Shown here in pieces: positions 4,984 to 64,000 of a DNA stretch of 64,000 bases. Made by a program: the position numbers and the translations under genes. This DNA is from Halanaerobium hydrogeniformans. GTDB lineage: Bacteria > Bacillota > Halanaerobiia > Halanaerobiales > Halanaerobiaceae. The DNA is taken from assembly GCF_000166415.1 (NCBI RefSeq), contig NC_014654.1, forward strand, positions 248,001 to 312,000, given 5' to 3'. The notes beneath the pieces are model-generated. The model did not search any database and had not been told where the DNA came from. It saw nothing but the letters and a program-made list of their open reading frames with translations. Numbering within the stretch: position 1 is the first letter of the stretch; the number at the start of each line of letters is the position of its first letter.

Positions 4984-4996
4984 GGGGCAAAAAATA

Positions 4997-5907: not shown

Positions 5908-6020
5908 TGAGGTTTGATGTGAAAATTAAATTATAATAATTATTTTGAAAAAATAGTTAAAAACTCATTAGAAAACATGGAGAATAACTTTAACAATTTT
6001 GATTTAAGGTGGGTGTTAAG

Positions 6021-8207: not shown

Positions 8208-8208
8208 T

Positions 8209-8922: not shown

Positions 8923-8991
8923 GGTTCAACCCCCTAAATATGGAAAATATGTTTGTTAAGCTCGCTCATTCTTAGTTTCTCATTTTTTGAT

Positions 8992-10259: not shown

Positions 10260-10331
10260 TGGTGTTTCCCCCTTGTAATTAGAGTATATCACTTTCAAAC
10301 TTTTTCTCCAATTCTGTTAGGGGGCTATATA

Positions 10332-10988: not shown

Positions 10989-11280
10989 GCAACAATTTTA
11001 TGAATATTTGATCGAGAAAACTTTCGAAAGTTTTGAGAATAATCTAGGTAGTGGTGAGAGATATTATATACAATTCGAAGAGAAAGACGATGTAAAAAGT
11101 TTTTATCAGACCTTATGTGAAAATGATAGAGCGAAAGATTTCGTATATGAACATGAGCATGATGGGAAATCTTATGAGGTTTATACCACAAAATCGATCG
11201 ATTTAAACGGAAAAAAGCTTATTATAGCTGCCACCGTTGATGGTATAACTCCCAATTATTTGATAATCTTAAGAAATATG
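10969..11280 (+). pseudogene. dptH: dptH, 5' part (interrupted by second IS3-family element)
   Basis: I place the start at ATG 10969 (MLNQSYKQQF), 20 bases inside the end of dptG, because GTGGTG lies about 9 bases ahead; an ATG at 10960 is too close to it. About 104 codons run to ...ITPNYLIILRNM, then an IS element interrupts. The reading frame resumes near 12479. Family knowledge: DptH is the large ATPase of the phosphorothioation-dependent restriction system. The element boundary is known only to about 10 bases, so I cannot show a clean target duplication here. Confidence 0.8.
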
Positions 11281-17386: not shown

Positions 17387-17461
17387 TATTATATATTGGC
17401 TCCGCGAGGTTATAGCTTCTTCGTGGAGCTTAAATAAACTTATATGAATGTGGTGTTAAAG

Positions 17462-18061: not shown

Positions 18062-18083
18062 TAGTTAATGAGGTGTATAAAAT

Positions 18084-19514
18084 ATGGTTTATTATGATAT
18101 AAGTTCCTCCGAATCCATAGAAAAACATGCGAAAAAACTCGAAGGTAGTAGCATAAATGATCTTTATTCGAGATACGGCTGTTTGAACGAAAAGAACAAA
18201 GGGCGTTTGGGTTTATTGGTCGAAAGGTTACATTTTGGATTCGAAAATAATTCCGATGAGAGGCCTGATTTTCCTAAAGCTGGTGATAACGGTGTCGAAC
18301 TGAAGGTGGTTCCGATCAAGAAGATCAGGGAAAACAAGTCTTCTGATATGATCATTAAAAAAGAAGGGTTATCCGTTAAAGAAAGATTGGTTATAAAAAA
18401 AATAGATTATTTCAAGTTGGCAGAGGAAGATTGGGATGATAATACTTTGCTTCCCAAGATAACCTTGTTATTATTGATGTTCTATATGTATAAGGAAGGA
18501 CTTAATGTTGTTGATTATAAATTTTTGTTGGTCAGTTTATGGACCATACCTGAGAAAGACATGAATATAATTAGAGATGATTGGAAGAAGATAAAACGCA
18601 AAATAGAGAAAGGAGATGCTCACAAAATATCTGAAGGAGATACTCTATATTTGGGTGCCTGCACGAAAGCAGCATCTTCTTCTGATAGAACAGCCCAACC
18701 TTATTCTGAACACGAAGCAAAACCGAGAGCGTTTTCTCTTAAAAGAAGCTATATGGATGAAGTGTTTAATAGTTTGTATAAAAAAAGAAGTGATAGGAAA
18801 GAAAAGGCGCTTTTGGATACAGAAATGTCATTAAAAGAAAAATTGCAAGATATATTTGAACCTTATATTGGAATGAGGGTTGATGAGATAGAAAAACAAC
18901 TCGAAGTTGACTTAGGTACTTCAAAACAATACCTAAATATTTTGGCTAATGAAATAATGGGAGTAGATTCAGAAGATAACATAGAGGAATTCAATAAAGC
19001 GGGAATCAAGATTAAGACTATGCGTCTGAATAGAAAAGGTATACCTATCGAGAGTCTGTCCTTACCGACATTCGACTATATAGAACTGAAAGAATCGGAT
19101 TGGTTGCATTCCGAATTGTACGAAAGGTTAGAAAATACGAAATATTTTTTCGTGATATTCGATAAAATAGGAGTACAGAATACTAAGAAAAATTTAAAGC
19201 TTAAAAAAGTTAAATTGTGGAATATGCCTGCAGAAGATATAGAAAAAGCTCGACCTGTTTGGGAAGAAATGCATGATATAATGGTGAAAGGTAAAGACGG
19301 GAAGGGGATAATAAAAAAGGTAACGAAAAACGGTATTAGACGGACTAATTTTCCCGCCAAAAGCCATAGATTAAGCGAGGTTATACATGTCAGACCCCAT
19401 GCTAAAAACAAAAAAGACACATCTCCACTACCCGACACATTCGATATGCAAGGATACACTAAACATTCCTTTTGGTTCAACAACGACTATATTGCCGAAC
19501 AAATAAATGCATGA
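18084..19514 (+). CDS. Sau3AI/MutH-family type II restriction endonuclease (probable GATC)
   Basis: 476 residues, ATG with AATGAGGTG upstream, 22 bases after the glycosylase gene. The N-terminal half carries the MutH/Sau3AI catalytic signature: RPDF with Asp 62, then VELK with Glu 72 and Lys 74. A second, diverged half-repeat starts near residue 250, as in Sau3AI, where a second MutH-like domain serves as allosteric DNA-binding domain. Length equals the family norm (about 490). Sau3AI cuts at GATC, so GATC is the expected target. It converges with the methyltransferase gene, the two separated by a bidirectional terminator. Specificity is an inference from the family. Confidence 0.87.
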   Translation: MVYYDISSSESIEKHAKKLEGSSINDLYSRYGCLNEKNKGRLGLLVERLHFGFENNSDERPDFPKAGDNGVELKVVPIKKIRENKSSDMIIKKEGLSVKERLVIKKIDYFKLAEEDWDDNTLLPKITLLLLMFYMYKEGLNVVDYKFLLVSLWTIPEKDMNIIRDDWKKIKRKIEKGDAHKISEGDTLYLGACTKAASSSDRTAQPYSEHEAKPRAFSLKRSYMDEVFNSLYKKRSDRKEKALLDTEMSLKEKLQDIFEPYIGMRVDEIEKQLEVDLGTSKQYLNILANEIMGVDSEDNIEEFNKAGIKIKTMRLNRKGIPIESLSLPTFDYIELKESDWLHSELYERLENTKYFFVIFDKIGVQNTKKNLKLKKVKLWNMPAEDIEKARPVWEEMHDIMVKGKDGKGIIKKVTKNGIRRTNFPAKSHRLSEVIHVRPHAKNKKDTSPLPDTFDMQGYTKHSFWFNNDYIAEQINA

Positions 19515-33817: not shown

Positions 33818-34039
33818 CAGAAGCATTCCTGTAAGTTGCAGATTAAAAAATCATTGATGAAAGTAACCCAAAATTCACTTTAATTTTCCTTTGTTGGGTG
33901 ACTGACGAAAAAAATGCAAAAACCAGGAATTTTAACTTTTTAAAAAATTATTTAAAACAAATATTTTGTTAATAAACAGGTACTCCCATATTTACATTGA
34001 ATAAAATACATATAAAGGGTCTTGAGAGGGGGTTTCCAG

Positions 34040-36793
34040 GTGAAGACTAAAGTTTTTTTAAAAGAAGAACAGGAATTTAAAGAAGTTATGATTACAGATC
34101 CAGCTAAACCAGAGATAAAAGATGAATTTTTAAGTAAATGGCAGAATCTAATTAATATAGCAGCTAATATTATCGGTGTATCTGCTGCTTTAATAATGAA
34201 AATAAATCAAGGGTCGATGGAGGTTTTTTTAAATAGTCAAAACAAAGATACCCCTTATAAGGCAGGCGGTAGTTATTCATTAGGCCATGGTCTTTACTGT
34301 GAAACCGTTATTGCAAAAAATAAAGAACTTTATATTAAAAATGCTTTAGAAGATGAAACCTGGAAGGACAATCCAGATATTAATTTAAATATGATTTCCT
34401 ATTATGGATTACCTCTTAACTGGCCAGATGGTAAGTCTTTTGGTACAATTTGTATTCTTGATGATAAAAGTATGGACTTAAATCAAGATAACAGACAATT
34501 ATTGAAAGAATTTAGAAGTGTTATTGAAGCTGATTTTAGCTTATTGATCAAACAACAAGAATTGAAAATCAAAAACAAAGCAATTGAAAATTCTTTAGCT
34601 GGTATAGCATTTTCAAATATGCAGGGAGAAATCTTTTATGTTAATGATTCATTTTTAAAATTGTTTGGACATAAAACACCCGAAGAAATTTATGATGCTA
34701 AAATTACTCCTTTAGATTTAATCCCTGAAACAGAATTCGATAAAATCAAAAAAGCCATCGAAATTACCATAGAAAAAGGAAAGTGGAAGGGTGAATCAAA
34801 AGCTTTAAAGAAAAGTGGCGAACAAATTCACATTCAAATTTCTGCAAGTTTGGTCAAAGATGATAATGGGCATGAAATTTGTATGATGGCTTCATTTGAA
34901 GATATTACTGAAAGAAAAGAACAGGAAATAAACCTTAAAAAGCAAAAAGACAAATTAAACTTTATAATCAAGGGAACAGATGCAGGAACCTGGGAATGGA
35001 ATGTACAGACAGGTGAAATAATTTGTAACGAAAAATATGAAGAAATATTAGGTTATGAATTAGAAAAACTAAAGCCAATTACTATTGAAACCTGGATAGA
35101 GTTGACTCATCCAGAAGATTTGAAAAAAGTAGAGCAGCTTTTAAAAGACCATTTTAAAGGAGAAATAACTCAATATGATTTAGATATTAGGATGAAACAC
35201 AAAAAAGGGCACTGGGTTTGGTTGAATGCTCGTGGTAGATTAATTTCGTTAACAGATACTGGTGAACCTTATAAAATGTTTGGTGTTCATATCGATATTT
35301 CTAAACAGAAAAAACATGAGCAGATTATAAAAGAACTTCATAAAGTAGCTATTGAGTTTCAAAATCTTGATAATGAAAAGGAAATATGTCAGAAAACTAT
35401 TGAAACAGCCAGAGATATATTAGATTTCGATTTATCCCACATAAGCTTAGTTAAGGACCAAAAATTTATTCCAGCAGTTGTTACTGAGGGCATGAAACCA
35501 GAAATATTGTCTTTAGATTATGGAGTTATTGGTAAGGCATTTAAAAATAACAAAAGTTATCTTGTTTTAGATGCAGAAGAAAATCCTGATGCTAAACCAA
35601 CAGATAAAACATATAGGTCAGCTATAGCAGTACCTATTAAAGATATTGGTGTTTTTCTTGCTATATCTACTAATAAAAATGGTTTTAATCAAAAAGATTT
35701 AGAACTTGCTGAAATTCTTATTTCAAATACTAAAGCAGCTTTAGATAAACTTTACTATCAAAAAGAATTAGAATATAAATCTTTTCATGATAGCTTAACT
35801 AACTTATATAACCGCAGGTTTTTTGAAGAAGAAATAAAAAGGTTAGATACCAAACGACAGCTGCCAATCAGTATTATTATGGCTGATCTTAATGGTTTAA
35901 AATTAATCAATGACAGCTACGGCCATGATGTAGGTGATGAATTGCTAAAAAAGATAGCAAAAATTTTAGAAAGTTCTATTCGAAAAGAAGATATTGCCGC
36001 CCGCCAGGGTGGAGATGAGTTTGCAATTTTGCTACCTAAGACAAACAGAGAGCAATTAAGCAAGATAATAAAACGGATTAAAGATAAAGTAGAACGGATA
36101 AATCATCAAGCAGATATTCCGATATCTATTGCTCTAGGTTCAGCGATTAAAGAAGATTCTGCAGAAGATATCAATGAGATACTCAAAAAAGCAGATGACA
36201 ATATGTATCAAAACAAATTATCAGAAAGCAGGAGTACTAAAAGCAGGATAGTCCAGGGATTATTAAACAGTTTAAATGCAAAAAGCAATGAGACCAAAGA
36301 ACATGCGTTAAGAATGCGCGATTTAGCTGTTAAATTCGGTAACAAATTAAAGCTTACTTATTCTGAAATTAATAGGCTTTCATTGCTGGCGACAATGCAT
36401 GATATTGGCAAAACCACAATTTCAGAAGAAATATTAACTAAAGCTGCTAAGCTAGATGAAAAAGAATGGATGATAATGAAAAAGCATTCAGAACAGGGAT
36501 ATAAAATAGCTTCTGCATCTGAAGAGTTCATATTGGTAGCAGAAGATATATTAGCTCATCATGAACACTGGGATGGCAGCGGCTATCCTCGAGGTTTAAG
36601 TGGAGAAGAAATTCCTTATTTAGCTCGCATAATTTCTATAGTAGATGCTTATGATGTCATGACTAATGATCGCCCATACAGTAAAGCTATTTCTATGGAA
36701 GAAGCTTTGAAGGAAATAAAAAGTTGTGCTGGTAGTCAGTTTGATCCAGAATTAGCAGATAAATTCATAGAAATGATGAATAATGAGTTTTAA
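34040..36793 (+). CDS. Cyclic-di-GMP enzyme: GAF-PAS-PAS-GAF-GGDEF-HD-GYP
   Basis: 917 residues from GTG 34040, with GAGAGGGGG about 9 bases upstream; a TTG at 34022 is too close to it. Order: GAF (20-170), two PAS domains with PAC-type tails (180-290, 300-430), a second GAF (440-560), GGDEF (590-740) and HD-GYP (750-910). The GGDEF motif is intact (near 656), with an inhibitory site RKED five residues ahead. HDIGK (near 786) and HHEHWDGSGYP (near 839) make the phosphodiesterase motif intact as well. It could therefore make and degrade cyclic-di-GMP, depending on sensor input. No membrane segment, so it is cytoplasmic. A cyclic-di-GMP riboswitch is found at 51141. Confidence 0.9.
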   Translation: MKTKVFLKEEQEFKEVMITDPAKPEIKDEFLSKWQNLINIAANIIGVSAALIMKINQGSMEVFLNSQNKDTPYKAGGSYSLGHGLYCETVIAKNKELYIKNALEDETWKDNPDINLNMISYYGLPLNWPDGKSFGTICILDDKSMDLNQDNRQLLKEFRSVIEADFSLLIKQQELKIKNKAIENSLAGIAFSNMQGEIFYVNDSFLKLFGHKTPEEIYDAKITPLDLIPETEFDKIKKAIEITIEKGKWKGESKALKKSGEQIHIQISASLVKDDNGHEICMMASFEDITERKEQEINLKKQKDKLNFIIKGTDAGTWEWNVQTGEIICNEKYEEILGYELEKLKPITIETWIELTHPEDLKKVEQLLKDHFKGEITQYDLDIRMKHKKGHWVWLNARGRLISLTDTGEPYKMFGVHIDISKQKKHEQIIKELHKVAIEFQNLDNEKEICQKTIETARDILDFDLSHISLVKDQKFIPAVVTEGMKPEILSLDYGVIGKAFKNNKSYLVLDAEENPDAKPTDKTYRSAIAVPIKDIGVFLAISTNKNGFNQKDLELAEILISNTKAALDKLYYQKELEYKSFHDSLTNLYNRRFFEEEIKRLDTKRQLPISIIMADLNGLKLINDSYGHDVGDELLKKIAKILESSIRKEDIAARQGGDEFAILLPKTNREQLSKIIKRIKDKVERINHQADIPISIALGSAIKEDSAEDINEILKKADDNMYQNKLSESRSTKSRIVQGLLNSLNAKSNETKEHALRMRDLAVKFGNKLKLTYSEINRLSLLATMHDIGKTTISEEILTKAAKLDEKEWMIMKKHSEQGYKIASASEEFILVAEDILAHHEHWDGSGYPRGLSGEEIPYLARIISIVDAYDVMTNDRPYSKAISMEEALKEIKSCAGSQFDPELADKFIEMMNNEF

Positions 36794-49672: not shown

Positions 49673-49856
49673 AGAGAATTAATATATAAATTATCTTTGA
49701 TATACTAATGAGTTTGACTAACTCAAATTCTTTTACTCAACAAAGATTAGCTAGATATTTCCAAACGAATTTATTGTACAATAATCACTATTAAGTAAAT
49801 AATCTTAATAATATTTGAATTGTATAATTAAATGCACGCGGTGATTAGATAAAAAA

Positions 49857-51022
49857 ATAGACACATACCTGTACCTTTTGTATAATGTTAATAGCGACAA
49901 AAACATTAGGAGGTACAGAATATGTGTCAAAGTAATTGTAACACAAAACGAAGCAAAGGAAAACACCTGAATTTTGATGATCGCAAATTAATTAAACATT
50001 TATATAATGTCCAAGAAAAAAATTATACTGAAATAGGCGAAGAATTAAACTGCCATAGAACAACAATCAGTCGAGAAATAAAAAAAGGTGAGGTAGAACT
50101 TGATAATGGTGATGGAACAACCAGAAAAGAATATGTACCAGAGATAGCACAGAAAGTATATGAATTTAATAATTCGAATAAAGGCCCTGATTTAAAAATC
50201 GATAAAAATAAAGAGTTAGCAGAATTTATAGAAGAAAAAATCAAGGAATTAAGATCTCCTGCAGCAGTGGCAAAAGACATTGAAGAATCAGATAAATTTG
50301 AAATTCAATTACACTGGAAAACAATCTATAATTACATAGATAAAGGTGTTTTGAATATAGACAGAAGCGATCTCCCACATGGTAATTATAAAACTGGGAA
50401 AGACAGACCAAAAGAAAGTGAAAGCACTACGAGGCGTAAGGAAGGTCGTACAATTAGAGATAGGCCTGAAGGAGCTGATACCAGGGAGGAATTTGGGCAT
50501 TGGGAGATGGACTTAGTAGAAGGGTTAAAACAAAAAGATGAACCTGCCTTACTAGTGCTGACAGAAAGACAAACTAGGCAGGAAATCATAGAAAAAATAC
50601 CAAACAAAAAAGCAAAGTCAGTGGTAAAAGGACTTGATCGTATAGAAAGACGATTTGGGGTTGTTAATTTTAGGGAAACATTTAAATCGATTACTACAGA
50701 CAACGGTTCAGAATTTGCAGATTATGAAGGTATAGAACAATCATATACAGGTAGCAGTATACCTAGAACTAGTTTGTATTATTGTGATGCATACTGTAGC
50801 TGGCAAAGGGGATCAAATGAAGTAGCTAATAAGTTTATCAGAAGATTTTTACCTAAAGGCACAAGTTTTAAAGGTATTAAGAGAAAACTGATAAAAAAGA
50901 TTCAGGATTTTATAAATACTTATCCTAGAAAAATGTTTAACTATGAAAACTCAGATAAATTATTTAAAGAGAAATTAAGCTTTAGTGTCTAGAAGTAATG
51001 AAGGTACAGGTGATTTTAAGAA
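49857..51022 (+). mobile_element. IS30-family element
   Basis: Inverted repeat ACCTGTACCTT (49868-49878) and AAGGTACAGGT (51002-51012) flank one transposase gene. The bases outside these, AATGCACGC on the left (49830-49840 area) and GCGTGCATT on the right (near 51036), are inverted copies of each other, so the element may have entered a palindromic site, a preference known for IS30 relatives. No clean target duplication identified. Confidence 0.8.
49922..50992 (+). CDS. IS30-family transposase
   Basis: 356 residues, ATG behind TTAGGAGGT. N-terminal helix-turn-helix (HLNFDDRKLIKHLYN; CHRTTISREIKKG), then the DDE core: D in GHWEMDLVEG, D in TTDNGSEFADY, E in GSNEVANKFIRRFLPKG. Length and motifs are complete, so the element is probably functional. 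It lies 250 bases after the ArsR gene and just ahead of the riboswitch-controlled surface operon, without disrupting either. Confidence 0.93.
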   Translation: MCQSNCNTKRSKGKHLNFDDRKLIKHLYNVQEKNYTEIGEELNCHRTTISREIKKGEVELDNGDGTTRKEYVPEIAQKVYEFNNSNKGPDLKIDKNKELAEFIEEKIKELRSPAAVAKDIEESDKFEIQLHWKTIYNYIDKGVLNIDRSDLPHGNYKTGKDRPKESESTTRRKEGRTIRDRPEGADTREEFGHWEMDLVEGLKQKDEPALLVLTERQTRQEIIEKIPNKKAKSVVKGLDRIERRFGVVNFRETFKSITTDNGSEFADYEGIEQSYTGSSIPRTSLYYCDAYCSWQRGSNEVANKFIRRFLPKGTSFKGIKRKLIKKIQDFINTYPRKMFNYENSDKLFKEKLSFSV

Positions 51023-51084
51023 AGATTAAAAAAGCGTGCATTGCATGTTGCAATTCACCTAATCTTAATAATAATAATTATTTT

Positions 51085-51113
51085 TTGCAATCTGATTATT
51101 TTTTATGTATAAT
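51085..51113 (+). promoter_or_regulatory. Promoter ahead of the cyclic-di-GMP riboswitch
   Basis: TTGCAA at 51085-51090 and TATAAT at 51108-51113, spacer 17. The riboswitch begins about 28 bases after the -10 box, the normal distance for a leader RNA. Confidence 0.7.
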
Positions 51114-51140
51114 TAACTAATAATAAAATAAAAAAATAAA

Positions 51141-51214
51141 AGGCAATTCAATCGAAAGGTTGTTACGCAAAAGTCTGAATCTACGGGGGTACCCTATGAT
51201 TGTCAGCTTGCCTC
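51141..51214 (+). promoter_or_regulatory. Cyclic-di-GMP-I riboswitch (GEMM)
   Basis: Closing stem AGGCAA (51141-51146) with TTGCCT (51208-51213). Inside: the CGAAAGG tetraloop region, the conserved TACGCAAAAGTC segment, a second stem GGGTACCC region, and TGTCAGCTTGCC at the 3' side. These match the GEMM plan: GAAA tetraloop docking into the receptor, ACGCAAAG ligand strand, and the GTCAGC return strand. It binds cyclic-di-GMP. A terminator follows 13 bases later, so control is most likely by transcription termination, acting on the surface-protein operon downstream. Confidence 0.85.
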
Positions 51215-51226
51215 AGGCTATAAACT

Positions 51227-51254
51227 GTCAAAGTGATTTCACTTTGGCTTTTTT
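51227..51254 (+). terminator. Riboswitch expression-platform terminator
   Basis: TCAAAGTGA (51228-51236) pairs with TCACTTTGG (51239-51247, last pair a mismatch or wobble) and is followed by CTTTTTT. It lies between the riboswitch and the start codon at 51298, so it must be read through for expression. Confidence 0.8.
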
Positions 51255-51297
51255 GATGTCTATATAATTTTTTAACAAGGGGACAGGAGATGAAATT

Positions 51298-53958
51298 ATG
51301 AAAACAAAAAAAATATTATCAAGCATTATAATAACTTTTCTATTTTTATTATTCTTTTCAATGTTGATTAGTGCAACAGAAACTAACAACAATGATTTTT
51401 ATAAGGGAGAATTCTTTGTTGGTTTTGCAGAATTATATTTTGGAGAAAATAACTTATCTGGAGATATTGAACTCATTGAAGATAGTGATCGATTTCAGGA
51501 AAAAGTTGATATGGGGAGAATTAATTTTTATCTTCGCGGCAAAATTAGAGGTAAATACTTAATTACTGCCTGGCTTGATACAGAAGAACAAAGTTTAGGT
51601 GAAATTTTTAAGAATTTGGGTGATCGTAAAGTTAACACTCCTTTTGAAAAAATAGATGCAGAAAAATATTACCCTGTTTACGGTGATGATTCTTCTGTGG
51701 TTTCCGAGATTGATACAGCAGGTAAATTATATTTAAAATTAGAATCTGAAGAATTAAATGCTATATGGGGTAACTATAATTTAACTTATAACAACAATGA
51801 ATTAATAAATCTTAGAAAAAATATTTATGGTGCAAATATAAATTATCAAAATGATCTAGCTATTAATACACACTGGTATCAACCTTTTTCAACTCAGACT
51901 AGAGATGAGTTGGAGTTAACAGGGGGTATATTATATTATTTGAGGCAGGATGATTTAATAGCAGGTAGTGAAAATATTAAATTAGAGCTGAGAGATTCCA
52001 GTACAGATAGGGTTTTAGAAAGCATAAATTTAGTTGCTGGCAGAGATTATGAAATTAATTACCTGCAGGGAAGAATTATTTTAAAAAGAAATATAAAAAC
52101 TTTAAGAGATAATGGTTTAATAAAAGATAAAGATGGAGAAAACAAATATTTTATGATAGTAGATTATCAATATGATTATGATAGTAGTGATAACCAGCAG
52201 AACAATTATGGTTTAGAAACAGAATATAATATTACAGATAATTTATCATTAGGTGCTAATTATCTGGAAGAAAGTAATGATGAAATAAACGAATACAGTC
52301 TTTGGGGATTAAATTTAATTTATCGAACTCCTGAAGGCACTTTATTTAGAGTTGATTATGCAGAATCTGAAAATGCAATCACCGATAAATATTTTTCTGA
52401 TGATGGTGGGATAAGTTATCAAAAGATAAATCTTAATGATGATGAAAAAGCACAAGCCTGGAATATTGAATTTAATAAAATGCTGGCCGAGGAACGAGAC
52501 CTAGAATTAAAAACTTTTTATTCTAATAAAGAATCAGGCTTTAACAGCGGGAGCCAGTACTTAGAAAATGATAAAGAAAATTATGGTCTGGCTCTAATTC
52601 AAGATAAAGAGAGAAAAGAGAATCAGGTATCATATGAAAAAGATATAAGTGGAGAAAATGAAACGGATATCTATAATTTGAGATTCTGGAGACAGCAAAC
52701 TGAGCAAAGAAGCTATGAACTTGAGGTAGAAAATAAAGTTAAAACTGCAGAAGATAAAGAAGATGCAAGAACCCTAAATAGTGCCTTTGGTTTTGAGCAG
52801 CAATTTGATAGTGGGAACAGAATTTATGGTAGTCAGCAGTTTACATTATATAAAAGTGATGAAGCTGAAAGAAATAACATAACAACCTTAGGTGGAGAAA
52901 TAAAGAGAGAAAAATGGCGCTACAGTGCTGAAGGTAGTGTAGGCGACAAAGAAAAAATACTGCTTGGAGCAGGATATATGCTCAATGAAAATAGTGAAAT
53001 ATATACAAATTTAGAAAGAGAGTATAAAGATCAGACTTCAACAGAAACTACTTTTGGAGCTAAGAGTGAATTAACAGAAAAAACCACTGTAAGTGCCGAG
53101 CATAGAATATTTGATAATGAAAATAAAAATGAGACAAGTAATGTTATTGGTCTTGATTATTTAGCTTCTGATAATCTTGTTCTTGCATTTGATTACAGTC
53201 GCAGTGATGTAGAAAGAGATAATTCTGAAGATTTCAAGCGCGACATTATTGGTGGAGCTGTAAATTATACGAAAAACAACTTCAGAACATCTAACAGGAT
53301 TGAATATAGAATTGATGATAAGGTTCAAGATTTTGAACAGATTGTTTTCAAATCTAATTCAAAATGGAGATATAATGATGAATTTAATTATATCTCAGAA
53401 ATAGAATATTCAAAGGAAAAAGAAGATAGTGAAGACCGCTATTTTGAAGGTACTATAGGCATGGCTTATAGGCCGATTGAAAATAATAGATTAAATTATT
53501 TATTTAAATACACATACTTGGACCAAAAGAATTACTTAAACCAGGATTCTATTCCAGAACTGGGAGATTATGCAGCTGAGAAATCACAGATTTTTTCCTT
53601 AGATTTAATCTTTGAATTTAATCCAAAGTGGCAGCTCACAGAAAAAATAGCTTATAAAAATTCTGAAGTTAAACTTCATAGTTCTGAAGATAGCTGGGCA
53701 AGAAGCGAAACTTATCTCTGGGTTAATAAATTAGATTATACTTTAAGAGATGATTTCAATCTTTTTGTAGAATATCGGATACTGGAAAATAAATTGGCAG
53801 ATGATAGACGAGATGGTTTCTTGCTTGGAGCATATAAAGATTTTGATAACAATACTAAATTGGGAATCGGATATAATTTTACCGACTTTAATGATGATTT
53901 AACTAACTTAAGTTATGAAGCAAAAGGCTGGTTTGTCAATTTGATTAAAGCCTGGTAG
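51298..53958 (+). CDS. Large outer-membrane beta-barrel-like protein
   Basis: 886 residues, ATG behind GGGGACAGGAGATGAAATT. A signal peptide (IIITFLFLLFFSMLISAT) is followed by a globular part to about 250 and then by some 600 residues of alternating strands with repeated pattern (LELKTFYSNKESG; WRYSAEGSVGDKEKILLGAGY; LVLAFDYSRSDVERD). It ends in VNLIKAW, an aromatic last residue typical of barrel proteins inserted by BamA. I do not recognise a named family. It is the first gene behind the cyclic-di-GMP riboswitch, and a giant surface protein gene follows 51 bases on; it may anchor or export that protein. This is inference. Confidence 0.75.
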   Translation: MKTKKILSSIIITFLFLLFFSMLISATETNNNDFYKGEFFVGFAELYFGENNLSGDIELIEDSDRFQEKVDMGRINFYLRGKIRGKYLITAWLDTEEQSLGEIFKNLGDRKVNTPFEKIDAEKYYPVYGDDSSVVSEIDTAGKLYLKLESEELNAIWGNYNLTYNNNELINLRKNIYGANINYQNDLAINTHWYQPFSTQTRDELELTGGILYYLRQDDLIAGSENIKLELRDSSTDRVLESINLVAGRDYEINYLQGRIILKRNIKTLRDNGLIKDKDGENKYFMIVDYQYDYDSSDNQQNNYGLETEYNITDNLSLGANYLEESNDEINEYSLWGLNLIYRTPEGTLFRVDYAESENAITDKYFSDDGGISYQKINLNDDEKAQAWNIEFNKMLAEERDLELKTFYSNKESGFNSGSQYLENDKENYGLALIQDKERKENQVSYEKDISGENETDIYNLRFWRQQTEQRSYELEVENKVKTAEDKEDARTLNSAFGFEQQFDSGNRIYGSQQFTLYKSDEAERNNITTLGGEIKREKWRYSAEGSVGDKEKILLGAGYMLNENSEIYTNLEREYKDQTSTETTFGAKSELTEKTTVSAEHRIFDNENKNETSNVIGLDYLASDNLVLAFDYSRSDVERDNSEDFKRDIIGGAVNYTKNNFRTSNRIEYRIDDKVQDFEQIVFKSNSKWRYNDEFNYISEIEYSKEKEDSEDRYFEGTIGMAYRPIENNRLNYLFKYTYLDQKNYLNQDSIPELGDYAAEKSQIFSLDLIFEFNPKWQLTEKIAYKNSEVKLHSSEDSWARSETYLWVNKLDYTLRDDFNLFVEYRILENKLADDRRDGFLLGAYKDFDNNTKLGIGYNFTDFNDDLTNLSYEAKGWFVNLIKAW

Positions 53959-54009
53959 ATTATAAAATCCGAAGATATATAAAATGGTTTAAAGAAAGAG
54001 GGGAAAAGC

Positions 54010-57000
54010 ATGAAAATTAATAGTAAAAATATATTAACTATTTTAATAGTACTAGTTATGATATTTACTCTTAACTCAGCAGTTATGGCACAGAATGGTG
54101 GAGTAACTATTGAGCAAACTATACCAGATGAGATATATCCAAATGATGATCTAGGGCAGGAGTATGTGATATCAATAACTAATGACTCTGGAGAAGAAAT
54201 TGATAATCTAGAGGTAGTACTGGATATTGCAGATGGTTTTATTTTTGATGAAGATAAGATAAATTCAATTACAATAGAAGGAAATACAGTATCTGATTAT
54301 ACAGTATCTGAGGATACTAATAAATATACAATATCTTTTGAAGAAAATGACATTGATGATATACCACTAGCAGATGGTTCAAGTCTGGAGATTGATTATA
54401 AACTTTCTACAGCTGATGACTTAAATGATCAGGAAAAAGACCTTGAGATAACTTTTAAATATGAAGATGAAGATAATGAAAGACAAGAAGTAACAGATAC
54501 AGAAAACCTTAATGACAGAATTTTATTTGGTGAACTAGATATAGATTTATCTTTAAACCCTCAGCCTATGCATAGAGGTGGCGAATTTACAGTTACAGCA
54601 ACCATTACTAATGAAGGCGAAGGGAAGCTATTTAATACTACTCTAACACCTAATCAGAGTTCTGGTTTTAGTGAACCTTTATTTGATGATGGAGATGGAG
54701 ATAATTATAATGAAGAAAATTGGCCTGAATATTTAATACCAGAATTAGAAGCTAACGATACTTATACATTTATTAAATATACCTATACTGTTGTTGATAA
54801 AGAGAACTTTGAAACTTTAGAGCTTAAAGCTGAAAATCCTGCGACAGAGGTTTCTGATGTAACTGAATCAGCTAACTTTAGATTTAATCCACGGAAGCCA
54901 TTTATAGAGATAGATCCTCAAACTGATCCAGCAACAATTGATTTTGATACTTCAGAAGAGATTGATATTGAAATAACAAATACTAATGTAGGTGATGGTC
55001 CTGCCAGGGATTTTAAGATTAATACTAATATTCCTGCATCTTATGATGTAATTGAGCTTTCAGAGGGTTGGTCATATGCAGATGGTGTATTTACTTATGA
55101 TGCAGAAAATTTTCCTCCAGGCGAAAATGATGAAGGCTATTCTGAAACCCTATCTTTTAAGTTACAGACAGATGACCCTTTAAACCAAAGTGCTGGAACA
55201 ATAACTTTGCAGGCAGAATACACCGATGATGAAGATAATCCATTTAGTAGGCCTTTTGAGACCTTTGATTATAATGTTACAGGAATTCCGACTCTGAATA
55301 TTGAAAGCACAGCTTCTACTACAGCGGATCATGGTGATACTGATCGGATGTATTTAGGAGAAAATATATCTTATGAATATACTTTGTCTTTAACAGAAAT
55401 TGATAGATTTGCTGATGATGAAGACATTGTTGTTGAGTTAACTGAATTTGATGATGATAGATTAACTATTTCAGAAGACACACCAGACCCTGATGCTGGA
55501 ACTTTCAATAAAGATAATAAGACCTGGACTTTATCTAAAGATGATTTTTTGGATAATGGAGAAGTTCAAAATTTGTCTATCAAAATGGATTTTGAAATAA
55601 CTGAAGATATAAATAATGCTAAAAGCATTGTTACAACTACTGCTAATGCCAGTGGTAAACTAGAACTTACTGTTGACGAGGAAGATTTAATAAGTATAAA
55701 TGATACAACATCCGATTCATTTTACCTTCAAAGCAGGTATGAGGAAGTAAAATTAGGCGAACAGACTAAAGAGATAGATAATCTGCCGGATGAAGGTAGT
55801 TTTGATTACACCAGAACTGATGATAAACATAGGGTGGAGTATATTGTAAGTTATAGCTTTGAAGAGAATTCTGCTGGTACCTGGACAGGGAGCATTATAA
55901 CCGATGATATGGATAATGATCAGATTTATAATGACGATGATGGATTTATTCAATATTCAACTGATGGTGGTTCGACATGGGAGGATGTTCCAACAGTCAA
56001 TATTATTTCAACAGAAGGTGATTTACAGTTTGAGCTTGACTTTCTAGCAGATGACGATAATTTTGATGATGATGATGTCGCCGGAGAGACTGTCCATTTT
56101 AGATATAAACTTGAAGTTACTCAAGCAGGAGATATTGATTCCTGGACTACCCTTAATCTAAATGGGGTTAATGGTTCAACCGAGTTTTATCAGGTTGTCA
56201 GAGTTCCTGTAAGTGGAGCTTCTGCCAATGTTAGTGTTGAGGTTCAAAAAGATGCCAGTAGAGCTAATGATATAGATAGAGGAGAATTAGTAGATCTTGT
56301 AATTAATGTAACTAAGAATCCTTGGTTGATAGACAATTTGATAGTTGAAGTTGATCCTGGTGGTTACACTTATATTGATTACAGTGATATAAATGACTTA
56401 TATATAGAAGTAACTGGCTTTAAAGAGCATGATCCAGAAATTTCTTATGAAGATGGAATATTTACTTTTAACTTTACTGGTGCTGGAAAATTTAAAGATG
56501 AAGATCTTGGTACTATAAAACTAAATAATATCGCAAAAGATTGTTCTGATAATTTCAAAGCTAGTGCAGACATATCGTATAAACACGGGCTTCACAGAGA
56601 TGCAGTTGAAGATGACTTTAAAATAGATGAACCTATTGAAAAAACTAGCAATTCATCTGAGCCTACAATCAAAAGAAAATCAGATTTAATAATAAGAGCA
56701 GTTAATCCAGTTATTGTTGACGAGAAGCAAGTAACCTGGGAAATTAATGTTACCAATACTGACATTGGAACTGCTCGTAATGTAGAATTTATAGGAACTT
56801 TTGGAGAAGTTTTTGCTTATGAATCATCAAAAATAGAAGGAGTAGAAGCTGAACTCTCAAACTCAAATGATGAATATACATGGGATTTGGATGAAATTGA
56901 ATCTGGTACAACTAAGACAATTGAAATAACAGCAGACATAACTGATGCAGATAGTAGGGATGATTTTCTTGAAGAAGCCTTTGATTCCACAGTCAAATGG

Positions 57001-60000
57001 TATACAGCTGAGGTTAATGGTCAAAAGGAAGAATGTGGTGAAAATGATAAAGGGTTTTTCCCAAGATTCGTTGAACCCAGTCAAGATACAGATATGACAG
57101 TTAGAAATAATTTAGAATTACCTTCAGAGCTTAATATCTGTGATGAAGGAAGACTTGAAATAATTATTAAAAATAGAGGAGAAGTAACAAATTACAATGT
57201 TGAAGTCATTCAAGATTTTTTAGATACAGGTATAAGTTATGATAGTGATAAAGATATTGAAGTTGACGGAACATCAATTAATTCAAATGGTGATCCTGAG
57301 ATTATAAATGATGAGAGCAAATTAATCTTTGATGAAGAATTGATATCTGAACTTAATGAAATGAGTCCAGGAGAAGAAGTGAAAATTAGTTTTGGAATAA
57401 AGACCGGTACTAATTTCAATGATAATAATATCGTTCAGCCTACAGTTAATTGGAATCCACCTTCTTATTACGATCAAGATGACCAAGAAAAGTCTAGAGG
57501 AGGTAGAGAATATGCTATTCCACGGATCAGACCAGAGATTAATCTTGAACTTAAGGGAAGAAATGAAAGTATAGATGAGACAGAATTTGTTGATAATCCT
57601 GCTGCGTTTGCTGGAGAAGATAAAGTTCTCTGGAGATTTGAGATTGAAAATGTCGGCGATGGAGAAGCAAAAAATGTCAGGTTGAATAGTAGTGATTTTG
57701 GCAATGATGTTGAACTTTATAATGATGAAGAATTAAGTAGTAATGGAATAACAAATGAAAATGGCTACTGGGAGATAGAAAATATTGCTGCCAATGATAC
57801 TAAAACTTATTATCTTGCATATGTAGTACCTTCAGATAGTAATGACACTGTAGAATTTAATGCTAATGTAACTTGGGGTTGTGAGGATGATGACAACAGA
57901 TTGAACAGTCCTGGTGATCCAGATGATTATAACATACTCACTACAGTTCCTGCTATTGATATCGATCACTCAGTAGAAGAACTAACCAGAAAAGACGGTA
58001 CAGTTAGAATTACTTTAGAAAATACTGGTGCACCTATATATAATCTTGAAATAAATTATAATCTTGATGAAAGATACCAGCTCAAAAAAATTGCTGAATA
58101 TGAATCTGAATTAAATAATGAAGATACAAGTTCAGCTAATACCTGGACTGATATTGAAGGGACTGATGATGAACCTTCCACAGGAACTGACGATGATAGT
58201 TTTGTTCAAGGTGGTTCTGCAGATGATTTAACCTGGAATTGGGATGGCCCGATACCAGCCGGAACTCATAAAATCACTTTTGAATTAGTAGATTCTGGTG
58301 AGAATAAAGTTGATTTAGATGCTGCAAAACTAGAATCAAAAGTTACTGCAGAAGTTTATGATATAAATGAAGAATCAATTATATCGAATGAAGATATTTT
58401 AAATATAACACCGGAAATAGTTAATCTAACTGCAACTATGACTCCAGAACAACAGGTCATATCAGATATCAATTTGGATGAAAATGTTGAGTGGGATATC
58501 ACTGTAGAGAATGAAGGTAATGCTCCTGCAGAAAATGTCAAGATTGAGTTAGATCTTGGTGATGGTTTCAAAAGTACTGATTCTGATATAAACTACAGTT
58601 TTGAAAATGATAATGAGCCTATTGAATTTGATGATAATGATTTTAAAATTGAAAATGGAAAATTAATCTGGGAAAATCTTGACTTTGGAGATTCTGATCA
58701 GATAGATATTAATGTTACTACAAAAATGAATGCTACTGGAGACCATTCTGCCCAATTAAACGCAGAAGAGATTTCACCGCATACTGGAGCTACAGAAGAC
58801 AGTATTGAAGAACAGTCTGCTTATGCTGCTGCTTTTTTACTGGAGAAAGAAATAACTGATGAACCAGAGTCAAGCTATTATACTCCAGGCGAGAAAGTAG
58901 AATATACTCTGACCATGAACTTTATTGGTGAGGTTGAATATGAGAGCTTCACTTTAGAAGATATTTTGCCAGATGGTCTTGAGTATATTGATGATAGTCA
59001 GAATAAACCTGGTGATTGGACTTTTGAGCAGGATGATAAGAGTTTATCCTGGGATATAAATGAGTTGGATATATCTGATTCAGAAAATGAAAGGTCAATA
59101 AATTATCAGGCAATAATTGTAAAAGATGGAGATGTTAGTAAAGGCAGTAATGTTGAGAATACTGCTAAAGCAGAATTTAATATTGAGTATGGAGATGGAA
59201 TAAAAAAAGCATATGATAGTGATGAATTTGATAGTCTAAAAGCTTCTGAAGAATTCAGATTTCAGGAACCAAAACTCACTATTGTAAGAAGTGCTGAAAA
59301 TGAGAATACTAATATAGTTGCTGGAACAGTTATAAATCACACTATTACTGTTTCTAATGAAGATGGTGATCAATACTCACCTGCTTATGAAACTAAAATA
59401 ATCGAAACTATTCCAGAAGGTTTTAGAGATAAGGCAGAAAATATTAAAGAAACAGTTGCCATAGAAAAAAATAATGAAAGTTTAGAAGAAGATACAGATT
59501 TTGATGTTAGTTATGATAGTGATAGTGGTGAGTTAACTATTACTTTTGAAGATACTGATAAAGGAACTCTTGAACCTGGTGAAGAATTCATAATAACATT
59601 CAATTCTGAAGCTAATAATGCAGAGAATATTGAATCAGGAACTGAATATACCTTTAGCGCTGAGATTCAAGAATATTATTCATTAGAGAGTAATACAGAG
59701 GATGTTGAAGATTACCCCGATGAAGTAGTTAAAGCAGAAATAACATTTAATGCCACTAGTTCTGTATTTGAGGCAACTGCAGACAAAGAAAATGTTGCTC
59801 CAGGAGATTTAGTTACATTTACACTTGAATTTGAAGTCCCTGCAAATACAACCATTAATGAATTTGCTCTAAGTGGAGAACTCCCAGAAGGATTGGAGTA
59901 TGAGGGTAATGTTTCTGGACCGGGAACTCCTGAAGATAATGAGAATGATAATGATCTTGGCCAGTGGGATGTTAACACAAGTGGTGATCCAGAAGCTGAC

Positions 60001-63000
60001 GGTCAAGATATAATTTTTGATGCTAACGAAGCTTCTATAACTAATGATACAGATGAACCTTATGAATATGAAATAACATTTGATGCCAGGGTCTTGAATA
60101 TAAGTTCAATACAAAAAAGCACAGATTTAAATGCGAATTTCACTTATGAATATAATGAAAATCAAATTGAAGATAGTGTTGAACTTTCAGTAATAGAACC
60201 AGAACTTGAAGTGAATAAGAGCTTTGAAGAAGACAGCTATGAAGCAGGAGACACAGTAGACTATACTATAACTATCAATCACACGGGCGCTTCAACAGCA
60301 GATGCCTATGATGTTGTAATAGAAGATGTAATACCAGAGGGCATGAGTTATGTTGAAAACAGTATGACAGATGATTACGATGATTTGAATATTACAGTAA
60401 GCACAGAGAATGATGATGAGAAGTTAATTTGGGAGATTGAAGAGATTGGTAAAGATAGCTATGGTACAGGAAATGAAATAGAGTTGACCTATCAAGTTAC
60501 AATAGATGACAGTGTAGAGCCTGCAGAAGTGTTAACCAATGAGGTTGAGCTTACCTGGACATCACAACCTGGTGACGATAATACTGAGCAAAGAACAGGT
60601 ATTGAAGATGATGAATTAAATGATTACATCCAAACAACTGAGACTGATCTTACTATCAATGATGCTATTGATATCAGTAAAGAAATAACCAGTACAGGAA
60701 CTGAATATGCAATTGGAGATACCGTAGGCTATAGAGTAACAATAGACCTTATTAAAGGAACAATTCAGGAAGGCTTAAAGGTTACAGATTTAGTTCCTGA
60801 AGGTTTGAAATCAGATGGTTTCACCTTAAAAGACGGTAATGGTGATAATTTAGAGATATCAAATTATCTAAGTGATGATGATATAACTGATAACGAATTA
60901 GTATTCAATGAGATTGTTAATTCAGCTGATAATGGTATAGCCGGTGATGAGATACAAATTGAATTTGATGCAGTAGTTGAAAATATTGAAGCTAATCAAA
61001 ATAATGATGAAATAGGAATTGCTTCTAAACTGATTTATACTGATGGTCAAGAGATCGAAAATACAATAACTTCAGAAGATCAAGCAACTATAAGAATAAT
61101 TGAACCAGATCTTGAAGTGAGTAAGGACTTTGGAGATGGAAGTTATGAAGCAGGAGATACAGTAGAATATACAATAACTATCAATCACACAGATGATTCA
61201 ACAGCAGATGCCTATGATGTTGTAATAGAAGATGTAATACCAGAGGGCATGAGTTATGTTGAAAACAGTATGACAGATGATTACGATGATTTGAATATTA
61301 CAGTAAGCACAGAGAATGATGATGAGAAGTTAATTTGGGAGATTGAAGAGATTGGTAAAGATAGCTATGGTACAGGAAATGAAATAGAGTTGACCTATCA
61401 AGTTACAATAGATGACAGTGTAGAGCCTGCAGAAGTGTTAACCAATGAGGTTGAGCTTACCTGGACATCACAACCTGGTGACGATAATACTGAGCAAAGA
61501 ACAGGTATTGAAGATGATGAATTAAATGATTACATCCAAACAACTGAGACTGATCTTACTATCAATGATGCTATTGATATCAGTAAAGAAATAACCAGTA
61601 CAGGAACTGAATATGCAATTGGAGATACCGTAAGCTATAGAGTAACAATAGACCTTATTAAAGGAACAATTCAGGAAGGCTTAAAGGTTACAGATTTAGT
61701 TCCTGAAGGTTTGAAATCAGATGGTTTCACCTTAAAAGACGGTAATGGTGATAATTTAGAGATATCAAATTATCTAAGTGATGATGATATAACTGATAAC
61801 GAATTAGTATTCAATGAGATTGTTAATTCAGCTGATAATGGTATAGCCGGTGATGAGATACAAATTGAATTTGATGCAGTAGTTGAAAATATTGAAGCTA
61901 ATCAAAATAATGATGAAATAGGAATTGCTTCTAAACTGATTTATACTGATGGTCAAGAGATCGAAAATACAATAACTTCAGAAGATCAAGCAACTATAAG
62001 AATAATTGAACCAGATCTTGAAGTGAGTAAGGACTTTGAAGCTGGAAGTTATGAAGCAGGAGATACAGTAGAATATACAATAACTATCAATCACACAGAT
62101 GATTCAACAGCAGATGCCTATGATGTTGTTGTAAAAGATGTTATACCAGAGGGTATGAGTTATGTTGATGAAAGTATGACAACATCAGTTGGAGATTCTA
62201 ATATAATTACAAGTACAGAAGTTGATGATCAGACTTTAAACTGGAATATTGAAGAATTTGGGCAGGATGATGGTCCAGTAGAGTTGACCTATCAAGTTAC
62301 AATAGATGCAGATGTTAGAGGTTCAATAGAACTTGAAAATCAATTTGTAGTAAACTGGGATTCACAGAGTGGTAATGTAGATGAACAAAGAGAATATAGT
62401 GAAAGCAGTTCAGTTATATTGACTACTATACCGGATTTAACTGTAAATGATAAATTAACGAATAATAACACACCGACAATTTCCGGTACAACAAATCCAG
62501 AACAGGAAGGAAGCACAGTAACAATAACTGTAGACGGCGAAGAATATACAGGAACAGTTGAAAGTGATGGCACCTGGTCGATAGAAGTAACAGATGAGTT
62601 AGACGATGGGGATTACACTGTGGATGCAGAGATTACTGATGAAGCAGGGAACAAAACAGAAGCTGAAGGTGACCTTACAATAGATACGGAGGCCCCAAGT
62701 TTAACAGTAGAAGACAAAGTTACCAATAATACAACACCGACAATCACAGGAACAACAGATGAGCCGGAAGGAAGCACAGTAACAATAACTGTAGACGGCG
62801 AAGAATATACAGGAACAGTTGAAAGTGATGGCACCTGGTCGATAGAAGTAACAGATGAGTTAGACGATGGGGATTACACTGTGGATGCAGAGATTACTGA
62901 TGAAGCAGGGAACAAAACAGAAGCTGAAGGTGACCTTACAATAGATACGGAGGCCCCAAGTTTAACAGTAGAAGACAAAGTTACCAATAATACAACACCG

Positions 63001-64000
63001 ACAATCACAGGAACAACAGATGAGCCGGAAGGAAGCACAGTAACAATAACTGTAGACGGCGAAGAATATACAGGAACAGTTGAAAGTGATGGCACCTGGT
63101 CGATAGAAGTAACAGATGAGTTAGACGATGGGGATTACACTGTGGATGCAGAGATTACTGATGAAGCAGGGAACAAAACAGAAGCTGAAGGTGATCTTAC
63201 AATAGATACGGAGGCCCCAAGTTTAACAGTAGAAGACAAAGTTACTAATAATACAACACCGACAATCACAGGAACAACAGATGAGCCGGAAGGAAGCACA
63301 GTTGATGTTGTTATAACTGACGAAGAGGGTGATGAAGTCTTCTCAGGTGAAGCAACAGTAGACGAAGATGGCAACTGGTCAGTAGATGTTTCTGATGAAG
63401 ATGAATTAGCTGAAGGTGATTATACTGTAGAAGCAGAGATTACCGATGAAGCAGGGAACACAACAAAAACTGAAGGTAGTCTTGAGATAGATACAACACC
63501 TCCAGGTCTAACAGTAGATGACAAAGTTACCAATAATACAACACCGACAATCACTGGTAGAACTGATGAGCCAGATGGTAGTGAAGTTACTGTTAGAGTT
63601 AATGGTAAAGAATATACTGCTATAGTAGAAGATGGTGGATGGAGTGTTGAGATACCTGAAGGGAATGAGTTAGCTGAAGGTAATTATACTGTGAATGCAG
63701 AGATCACTGATGAAGCAGGTAATACAACGACTTCAACTGGAAATCTAAGAGTTGATACAACACCTCCAGAACTCACAGTTAATGATAAGATAACCAATAA
63801 TACAACACCGACAATCACAGGAACAAGTGATGAGATAGGTGGTACTGTAACCATAACTGTAGACGGCAAAGAATATACAGGAACAGTTGAAAGTGATGGC
63901 ACCTGGTCAATAGATATAGATGATGAACTAGAAGAAGGAATATATGAAGTGTTTGCAGAAATTACTGATAAAGCAGGTAATACAACAAATGCTGAAGGCA
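54010..64000 (+). CDS. Giant repeat-rich surface protein / adhesin (partial, runs off window)
   Basis: Open in one frame from ATG 54010 (GAGGGGAAAAGC upstream) to the window end, over 3,330 codons; I checked the frame at several points. A signal peptide (ILTILIVLVMIFTLNSAVMAQ) is followed by many DUF11-type domains (for example SYEAGDTVEYTITINHT, DLVPEGL), the fold of many bacterial surface and adhesion proteins. From about 60202 two nearly identical 302-residue units occur in tandem. From 62437 on, 87-residue Ig-like domains repeat (NNTTPTITGTTDEPEGS; ITDEAGNKTE). Very acidic. It probably forms a long fibre outside the cell, controlled with the barrel protein by cyclic-di-GMP. The C-terminal anchor is outside the window. 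Confidence 0.88.
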   Translation, partial: MKINSKNILTILIVLVMIFTLNSAVMAQNGGVTIEQTIPDEIYPNDDLGQEYVISITNDSGEEIDNLEVVLDIADGFIFDEDKINSITIEGNTVSDYTVSEDTNKYTISFEENDIDDIPLADGSSLEIDYKLSTADDLNDQEKDLEITFKYEDEDNERQEVTDTENLNDRILFGELDIDLSLNPQPMHRGGEFTVTATITNEGEGKLFNTTLTPNQSSGFSEPLFDDGDGDNYNEENWPEYLIPELEANDTYTFIKYTYTVVDKENFETLELKAENPATEVSDVTESANFRFNPRKPFIEIDPQTDPATIDFDTSEEIDIEITNTNVGDGPARDFKINTNIPASYDVIELSEGWSYADGVFTYDAENFPPGENDEGYSETLSFKLQTDDPLNQSAGTITLQAEYTDDEDNPFSRPFETFDYNVTGIPTLNIESTASTTADHGDTDRMYLGENISYEYTLSLTEIDRFADDEDIVVELTEFDDDRLTISEDTPDPDAGTFNKDNKTWTLSKDDFLDNGEVQNLSIKMDFEITEDINNAKSIVTTTANASGKLELTVDEEDLISINDTTSDSFYLQSRYEEVKLGEQTKEIDNLPDEGSFDYTRTDDKHRVEYIVSYSFEENSAGTWTGSIITDDMDNDQIYNDDDGFIQYSTDGGSTWEDVPTVNIISTEGDLQFELDFLADDDNFDDDDVAGETVHFRYKLEVTQAGDIDSWTTLNLNGVNGSTEFYQVVRVPVSGASANVSVEVQKDASRANDIDRGELVDLVINVTKNPWLIDNLIVEVDPGGYTYIDYSDINDLYIEVTGFKEHDPEISYEDGIFTFNFTGAGKFKDEDLGTIKLNNIAKDCSDNFKASADISYKHGLHRDAVEDDFKIDEPIEKTSNSSEPTIKRKSDLIIRAVNPVIVDEKQVTWEINVTNTDIGTARNVEFIGTFGEVFAYESSKIEGVEAELSNSNDEYTWDLDEIESGTTKTIEITADITDADSRDDFLEEAFDSTVKWYTAEVNGQKEECGENDKGFFPRFVEPSQDTDMTVRNNLELPSELNICDEGRLEIIIKNRGEVTNYNVEVIQDFLDTGISYDSDKDIEVDGTSINSNGDPEIINDESKLIFDEELISELNEMSPGEEVKISFGIKTGTNFNDNNIVQPTVNWNPPSYYDQDDQEKSRGGREYAIPRIRPEINLELKGRNESIDETEFVDNPAAFAGEDKVLWRFEIENVGDGEAKNVRLNSSDFGNDVELYNDEELSSNGITNENGYWEIENIAANDTKTYYLAYVVPSDSNDTVEFNANVTWGCEDDDNRLNSPGDPDDYNILTTVPAIDIDHSVEELTRKDGTVRITLENTGAPIYNLEINYNLDERYQLKKIAEYESELNNEDTSSANTWTDIEGTDDEPSTGTDDDSFVQGGSADDLTWNWDGPIPAGTHKITFELVDSGENKVDLDAAKLESKVTAEVYDINEESIISNEDILNITPEIVNLTATMTPEQQVISDINLDENVEWDITVENEGNAPAENVKIELDLGDGFKSTDSDINYSFENDNEPIEFDDNDFKIENGKLIWENLDFGDSDQIDINVTTKMNATGDHSAQLNAEEISPHTGATEDSIEEQSAYAAAFLLEKEITDEPESSYYTPGEKVEYTLTMNFIGEVEYESFTLEDILPDGLEYIDDSQNKPGDWTFEQDDKSLSWDINELDISDSENERSINYQAIIVKDGDVSKGSNVENTAKAEFNIEYGDGIKKAYDSDEFDSLKASEEFRFQEPKLTIVRSAENENTNIVAGTVINHTITVSNEDGDQYSPAYETKIIETIPEGFRDKAENIKETVAIEKNNESLEEDTDFDVSYDSDSGELTITFEDTDKGTLEPGEEFIITFNSEANNAENIESGTEYTFSAEIQEYYSLESNTEDVEDYPDEVVKAEITFNATSSVFEATADKENVAPGDLVTFTLEFEVPANTTINEFALSGELPEGLEYEGNVSGPGTPEDNENDNDLGQWDVNTSGDPEADGQDIIFDANEASITNDTDEPYEYEITFDARVLNISSIQKSTDLNANFTYEYNENQIEDSVELSVIEPELEVNKSFEEDSYEAGDTVDYTITINHTGASTADAYDVVIEDVIPEGMSYVENSMTDDYDDLNITVSTENDDEKLIWEIEEIGKDSYGTGNEIELTYQVTIDDSVEPAEVLTNEVELTWTSQPGDDNTEQRTGIEDDELNDYIQTTETDLTINDAIDISKEITSTGTEYAIGDTVGYRVTIDLIKGTIQEGLKVTDLVPEGLKSDGFTLKDGNGDNLEISNYLSDDDITDNELVFNEIVNSADNGIAGDEIQIEFDAVVENIEANQNNDEIGIASKLIYTDGQEIENTITSEDQATIRIIEPDLEVSKDFGDGSYEAGDTVEYTITINHTDDSTADAYDVVIEDVIPEGMSYVENSMTDDYDDLNITVSTENDDEKLIWEIEEIGKDSYGTGNEIELTYQVTIDDSVEPAEVLTNEVELTWTSQPGDDNTEQRTGIEDDELNDYIQTTETDLTINDAIDISKEITSTGTEYAIGDTVSYRVTIDLIKGTIQEGLKVTDLVPEGLKSDGFTLKDGNGDNLEISNYLSDDDITDNELVFNEIVNSADNGIAGDEIQIEFDAVVENIEANQNNDEIGIASKLIYTDGQEIENTITSEDQATIRIIEPDLEVSKDFEAGSYEAGDTVEYTITINHTDDSTADAYDVVVKDVIPEGMSYVDESMTTSVGDSNIITSTEVDDQTLNWNIEEFGQDDGPVELTYQVTIDADVRGSIELENQFVVNWDSQSGNVDEQREYSESSSVILTTIPDLTVNDKLTNNNTPTISGTTNPEQEGSTVTITVDGEEYTGTVESDGTWSIEVTDELDDGDYTVDAEITDEAGNKTEAEGDLTIDTEAPSLTVEDKVTNNTTPTITGTTDEPEGSTVTITVDGEEYTGTVESDGTWSIEVTDELDDGDYTVDAEITDEAGNKTEAEGDLTIDTEAPSLTVEDKVTNNTTPTITGTTDEPEGSTVTITVDGEEYTGTVESDGTWSIEVTDELDDGDYTVDAEITDEAGNKTEAEGDLTIDTEAPSLTVEDKVTNNTTPTITGTTDEPEGSTVDVVITDEEGDEVFSGEATVDEDGNWSVDVSDEDELAEGDYTVEAEITDEAGNTTKTEGSLEIDTTPPGLTVDDKVTNNTTPTITGRTDEPDGSEVTVRVNGKEYTAIVEDGGWSVEIPEGNELAEGNYTVNAEITDEAGNTTTSTGNLRVDTTPPELTVNDKITNNTTPTITGTSDEIGGTVTITVDGKEYTGTVESDGTWSIDIDDELEEGIYEVFAEITDKAGNTTNAEG
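60202..62013 (+). repeat. Two tandem 906-bp repeats, nearly identical, third copy starting
   Basis: The start of the unit occurs at 60202, 61108 and 62014, exactly 906 bases apart (302 codons). Units 1 and 2 are nearly identical base for base, except for a few changes near their 5' ends (for example TCACACGGGCGC against TCACACAGATGAT). Unit 3 follows them for about 110 bases and then diverges. Such conservation indicates recent duplication or ongoing recombination. Confidence 0.9.
62437..64000 (+). repeat. Array of 261-264-bp Ig-like repeats, running off the window
   Basis: Unit starts at 62437, 62701, 62962 and 63223, then more variable units at about 63509 and 63770. The units at 62701 and 62962 are nearly identical. 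Each encodes about 87 residues of a bacterial Ig-like domain with the motif VTNNTTPTITG and the end EAGNKTEAEG. The number of repeats cannot be known, because the array continues beyond 64000. Confidence 0.9.

Follow-up and report, generated by a model that had tools for sequence, protein, structure and literature searches.

In Halanaerobium hydrogeniformans, a c-di-GMP-sensing riboswitch and a transcription terminator probably control a two-gene operon for an outer-membrane barrel and a surface fibre docked to it. The first gene encodes a predicted very large barrel and the second a Sec-exported, repeat-built fibre, whose SdrD_B-like C-terminal domain (the dock) belongs with the barrel and would most likely hold the fibre at or in the barrel pore, thereby leaving the repeats outside the cell. 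The operon is located at the end of a window of 64,000 nucleotides that corresponds to positions 248001-312000 of the 2,613,117-base genome, a single contig (Table 1). That the two genes form one machine is supported best by the pairing of barrel and dock, which recurs in split or fused form across phyla.

The riboswitch, barrel and fibre genes

An earlier note on this DNA had placed a promoter, a GEMM riboswitch, a terminator, a barrel gene and a surface-protein gene in one line. Every one of these elements is present. Promoter-like sites are no more common in the region than expected by chance (22 observed, 22.8 expected), so that it is only its place, ending 18 bases 5' of the aptamer, that speaks for this one as the promoter. 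The aptamer is the sole Rfam match within the window and covers the full length of the model (1-87, E 1.1e-8), by which score the leader is assigned to the c-di-GMP-I riboswitches. The stem of the terminator occupies 51227-51248 and is followed by TTTTTT. The leader thus resembles known c-di-GMP-I riboswitches in its full-length match above the curated cut-off and in the terminator behind it, whereas the target, a barrel-fibre pair, is different; no published barrel-fibre pair under c-di-GMP control was found in the open-licence PMC papers searched.

Table 1. Features of the window discussed in the text (window coordinates).
Feature	Position	Strand	Remarks
GAF/PAS-GGDEF-HD-GYP protein	34022..36793	+	possible c-di-GMP enzyme; not linked to the operon
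Promoter-like site TTGCAA-17-TATAAT	51085..51113	+	10/12 consensus matches; supported by position only
c-di-GMP-I (GEMM-I) riboswitch aptamer	51132..51215	+	RF01051, 57.7 bits versus gathering score 35
Intrinsic terminator (expression platform)	51227..51254	+	9-pair stem and U tract
Outer-membrane barrel protein, predicted	51298..53958	+	886 aa; signal peptide; without named family
Giant surface fibre gene	54010..64000	+	first 3,330 of 3,769 codons in window; signal peptide, DUF11, RrgB isopeptide and Ca_tandemer repeats

Several further elements were noted around the leader and elsewhere in the genome. An IS30-type element (window about 49850-51062), of which the genome holds six more near-identical copies, stops some 20 bases short of the riboswitch's -35 box, so that the promoter lies outside the element. 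At 51141-51146 the window aptamer reads GGCAA, while AGCAA is present in the genome's other two aptamers and in most pilB aptamers; a position probably near this difference tunes c-di-GMP versus 3',3'-cGAMP. The second of the three c-di-GMP-I aptamers in the genome lies just beyond the fibre gene and a gene for a short-chain dehydrogenase and precedes, with its own terminator, a PAS-GGDEF gene. The third (L006:7414-8723) is directly followed by an IS3-type element that cuts off its original target gene, and no terminator was seen behind it. The GGDEF/HD-GYP enzyme with an inhibitory site to which the earlier note had drawn attention is encoded by a real gene, with RKED five residues before GGDEF, but finding it near the operon carries little weight and is not specific evidence because the genome contains 28 GGDEF domains. 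A defence island at 2545-19514 of the window comprises DndF-, DndG- and DndH-like genes (phosphorothioate restriction) together with type IV and type II restriction genes as recognized by PADLOC models.

The description of the first gene product as barrel-like agrees with its AlphaFold2 model (pLDDT 79, pTM 0.72), which is nearly all beta and finds its best structural matches among outer-membrane barrels of many kinds, none of them close. Generic porins, LptD, ushers and TonB receptors, all with low TM-scores, are among the matches listed in the fold search; SprA is absent from the matches listed, which does not exclude SprA. A sequence search against the PDB matched no solved structure. Read off the predicted secondary structure, the model has about 40 membrane-type strands, with a small beta domain inserted at residues 186-236, and the predicted fold is a single very large outer-membrane barrel. 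The middling confidence of the model and the lack of a close solved barrel count against our overall reading. The window protein matched none of the Pfam and NCBIfam models above cut-off, and when 23 members of the barrel family were scanned, only scattered generic barrel models appeared, none in more than eight proteins and without any family in common.

The fibre gene follows on the same strand after a gap of 51 bases and ends at genome position 313319 (window-equivalent 65319). The surface protein of more than 3,330 residues announced in the earlier note is therefore, in full, a product of 3,769 residues with a signal peptide. Its composition is very acidic and its repeats, as identified with Pfam and NCBIfam, are of the DUF11, RrgB-type isopeptide and Ca_tandemer/Big_13 kinds. 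As an LPXTG motif was not found in the fibre, we reject sortase anchoring. The dock (residues 3668-3769) lies beyond the window end; its AlphaFold2 model is a beta-sandwich (pLDDT 91) and its best match is SdrD of staphylococci.

Pairing of barrel and dock

Of 38 Halanaerobiales genomes searched, six carry the barrel, at seven loci in all. A secreted protein is encoded downstream on the same strand at all seven, and at five of them the dock is seen directly at the end of that protein. In G007 and G019, both of them fragmented assemblies, the contig ends within the downstream gene and the dock sits on another contig, while in G013 a gene for 337 amino acids is inserted between the barrel gene and that of the secreted protein. 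Within the order, the dock profile is confined to barrel-bearing genomes and G020, an assembly of 75% completeness in which no barrel is present. A second barrel-fibre copy is present in the H. hydrogeniformans genome itself (L013:5011-13124), with the fibre split over two frames and with GGDEF and response-regulator genes on its flanks; neither this paralogue nor the G013 copy has a riboswitch.

The barrel's last 247 residues alone served as query in a wider scan of 84,980 species, which yielded 75 barrel loci, mostly from Proteobacteria but also from Nitrospirota, Planctomycetota, Myxococcota and Verrucomicrobiota. Fifty-seven of these loci, all found by the barrel alone, have enough upstream sequence to be assessed, and 55 of them contain the dock, either in a separate open frame upstream (49 loci) or in the barrel's own frame (6 loci). 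Since the association is this close, barrel and fibre are dedicated partners. Vibrio species feature the split form in reversed gene order, the fibre likewise ending at the dock, and in a fused Nitrospirae protein the domains are arranged in the order Calx-beta, SdrD_B, dock, OmpA and barrel. An unlinked pair in relatives had been set as the refuting result for the original proposal; this did not arise, as linkage holds at all Halanaerobiales loci read and the partners are neighbours or parts of one chain in other phyla.

Recruitment and direction of the riboswitch

Aptamers of the c-di-GMP-I class are present in 34 of the 38 Halanaerobiales genomes, where they precede, with names given from sequence, flagellar flgB operons, type IV pilus genes and genes for chemoreceptors, GGDEF proteins and small secreted proteins. 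At the other Halanaerobiales barrel loci that could be read no such aptamer was found, the closest copy (77% identity) ending at a contig edge. Conservation of the riboswitch together with the pair in this order is therefore rejected, the window locus being the only one with an aptamer among the copies read. Outside the order, 22 other barrel-bearing genomes contain c-di-GMP-I aptamers, and in three of them an aptamer lies directly before the fibre gene: 73 bases before the homologous fibre gene in Povalibacter uvarum, 60 bases in a Woeseiaceae genome, and ahead of a fused gene whose product has about 5,100 residues in a Myxococcota genome (G063, G068 and G070, respectively). A further genome, G060, has an aptamer at the end of a contig, ahead of a similar start with a signal peptide, and is likely the fourth case. 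By chance, 0.002 such cases would be expected, or 0.04 when aptamers are assigned to operons at random. In a phylogenetic tree the riboswitch-bearing members from Proteobacteria and Myxococcota make up one well-supported clade far from Halanaerobium, which means that riboswitch control of the barrel-fibre operon arose at least twice. The proposed c-di-GMP switch on barrel and surface protein thus gains an independent riboswitch on a homologous operon in a distant clade but loses the idea that the riboswitch is part of the conserved pair.

Two related genomes provide further cases of aptamers before genes for secreted or fibre-like products. In G021 (L171:6120-6644), c-di-GMP-I aptamers precede the gene of a small protein with curlin-like repeats, again in a diderm Firmicute. 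In G020 (L168:1076-4072), an aptamer with the same platform type as in the window is located before a gene for a secreted protein of 998 amino acids with a beta-helix region, possibly another riboswitch-controlled surface protein.

The expression platforms behind Halanaerobium aptamers fall into three types. In type A, TGCCTC(A/G)GG is followed by a terminator, and this arrangement is found before the window barrel as well as before pilB, pilus-like and GGDEF genes; type B has a different terminator and precedes flgB, and in type C a ribosome-binding site is located directly behind the aptamer. By its platform the window riboswitch is thus grouped with those of pili and not with those of flagella. 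Static folding of the window leader revealed neither an antiterminator nor a pairing mutually exclusive with the terminator, so that neither its direction nor the act of switching itself can be read from the fold and induction by c-di-GMP is a matter of judgement. On balance we lean towards rising c-di-GMP turning the operon on. The opposite, a riboswitch that shuts the operon off at high c-di-GMP so that the fibre serves the free-living state, strikes us as rather unlikely. It would agree with a terminator that does not overlap the closing helix of the aptamer and forms in the fold whatever the aptamer does, but the platform is of the kind found with pilus and GGDEF genes and differs from that of flagellar genes, and c-di-GMP usually promotes surface fibres rather than lowering them. 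In the pilB leaders L124, L129, L138 and L155 (alignment A5), the 5' edge of the aptamer (e.g. TAAAAGCAAA) is complementary to bases after the terminator (TTTTTTGCTTTA), and L138 features an apparent matched change in this complementarity, so that an alternative pairing is possible there.

Proposed display of the fibre and comparison with known systems

With about 3,700 residues of Ig-like repeats, the fibre would be too long to stand in the periplasm. Because of this length, the Sec signal, the near-constant barrel companion and a dock at the membrane end, the most economical view is that the fibre is presented on, or through, its own barrel, with the dock keeping it in place. We consider physical binding of the dock to the barrel fairly likely, whereas export or threading of the fibre through the barrel is conceivable at somewhat less than even chances. 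Adhesion is quite probably the purpose of the fibre.

The barrel might, with lower probability, be an anchor or receptor onto which the dock clips after the fibre has crossed the outer membrane by another route. An SdrD_B-like dock, a domain typical of surface stalks, would suit such a role, as would the OmpA (cell-wall binding) domains between dock and barrel in the fused member, which is an anchoring layout. However, no other exporter for the fibre is encoded beside the operon, and for the fused members the way across the membrane would have to lead through their own barrel or past it. That the barrel is an ordinary uptake porin sharing an operon with a surface protein by happenstance is very improbable. 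The similarity of the window barrel to Porin_4, weak and below cut-off, and the two copies without a riboswitch are compatible with it, but it would leave unaccounted for both the linkage of barrel and dock, with its one-chain fusions, and the repeated recruitment of riboswitches in a distant clade.

The designation of the organism as a diderm Firmicute is in line with an outer-membrane assembly barrel (Omp85/BamA) encoded at 477555-478415 (PF01103, E 1.9e-55), from which a diderm cell can be deduced. It is the only Omp85 in the genome. The operon shares with type Vb two-partner secretion (TpsB/TpsA) the combination of a barrel gene and a gene for a giant surface protein; in contrast, the window barrel yields no Omp85 match in the Pfam and NCBIfam scan, the pairing domain resides at the C-terminus, and no N-terminal TPS domain was found on the fibre, the first 496 residues of which gave DUF11 only in a Pfam scan. 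Two-partner export in the type Vb sense, as suggested earlier, is thus excluded. The fused members resemble type Va autotransporters in that passenger and barrel form one chain with the barrel last. This type is rejected as well, because barrel and fibre have separate genes in the window and about 40 strands are predicted where an autotransporter has a 12-strand C-terminal barrel; in addition, a fused member carries OmpA domains between dock and barrel.

Type 9 secretion relies on the 36-strand SprA, on substrates with C-terminal domains and on a proton-driven motor (PMC10994853). One very large barrel and a C-terminal beta-sandwich on the cargo are common to both systems, whereas the barrel described here has no sequence similarity to any solved structure and no carrier or plug protein was identified. 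A proton-channel cluster nearby adds to the likeness in one clade only: in the riboswitch-bearing Proteobacteria and Myxococcota, genes for TPR proteins, ExbB, two ExbD and a TonB-like (TonB_C) protein are located directly upstream of the fibre-barrel operon (L202, L203, L204, L205 and L193). This ExbB-ExbD-ExbD-TonB cluster would suit an energised step in its clade; none is present beside the window operon. We draw this comparison at the level of working style only, and a relationship to SprA would be conjectural. In Clostridioides difficile, the adhesin CD2831 is under the control of a c-di-GMP riboswitch and is a sortase substrate (PMC6447587). Both are Firmicute surface adhesins under such a riboswitch, if the adhesin role we infer for the fibre holds, but C. 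difficile has one membrane and a sortase, while the H. hydrogeniformans fibre combines the lack of an LPXTG motif with an outer-membrane barrel partner.

More speculatively, and with considerable doubt, the barrel family may be a new kind of outer-membrane protein exporter, in which a single giant barrel with about 40 strands moves a giant Ig-repeat fibre to the surface and retains it through the C-terminal dock. Such an exporter would occur in two-gene or one-chain form across several phyla, would draw energy in some lineages from an ExbB/ExbD/TonB complex of its own and would repeatedly have come under the control of c-di-GMP riboswitches. The family is widespread across several phyla, yet it is without a Pfam or NCBIfam model. 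If dock and barrel indeed work together, this small pair of only two genes would offer diderm bacteria, including diderm Firmicutes, a route for displaying fibres of several thousand residues that is neither type Vb secretion nor an ordinary autotransporter. That two distant lineages captured c-di-GMP riboswitches independently suggests that the pair takes part in changes between the free and the attached state.
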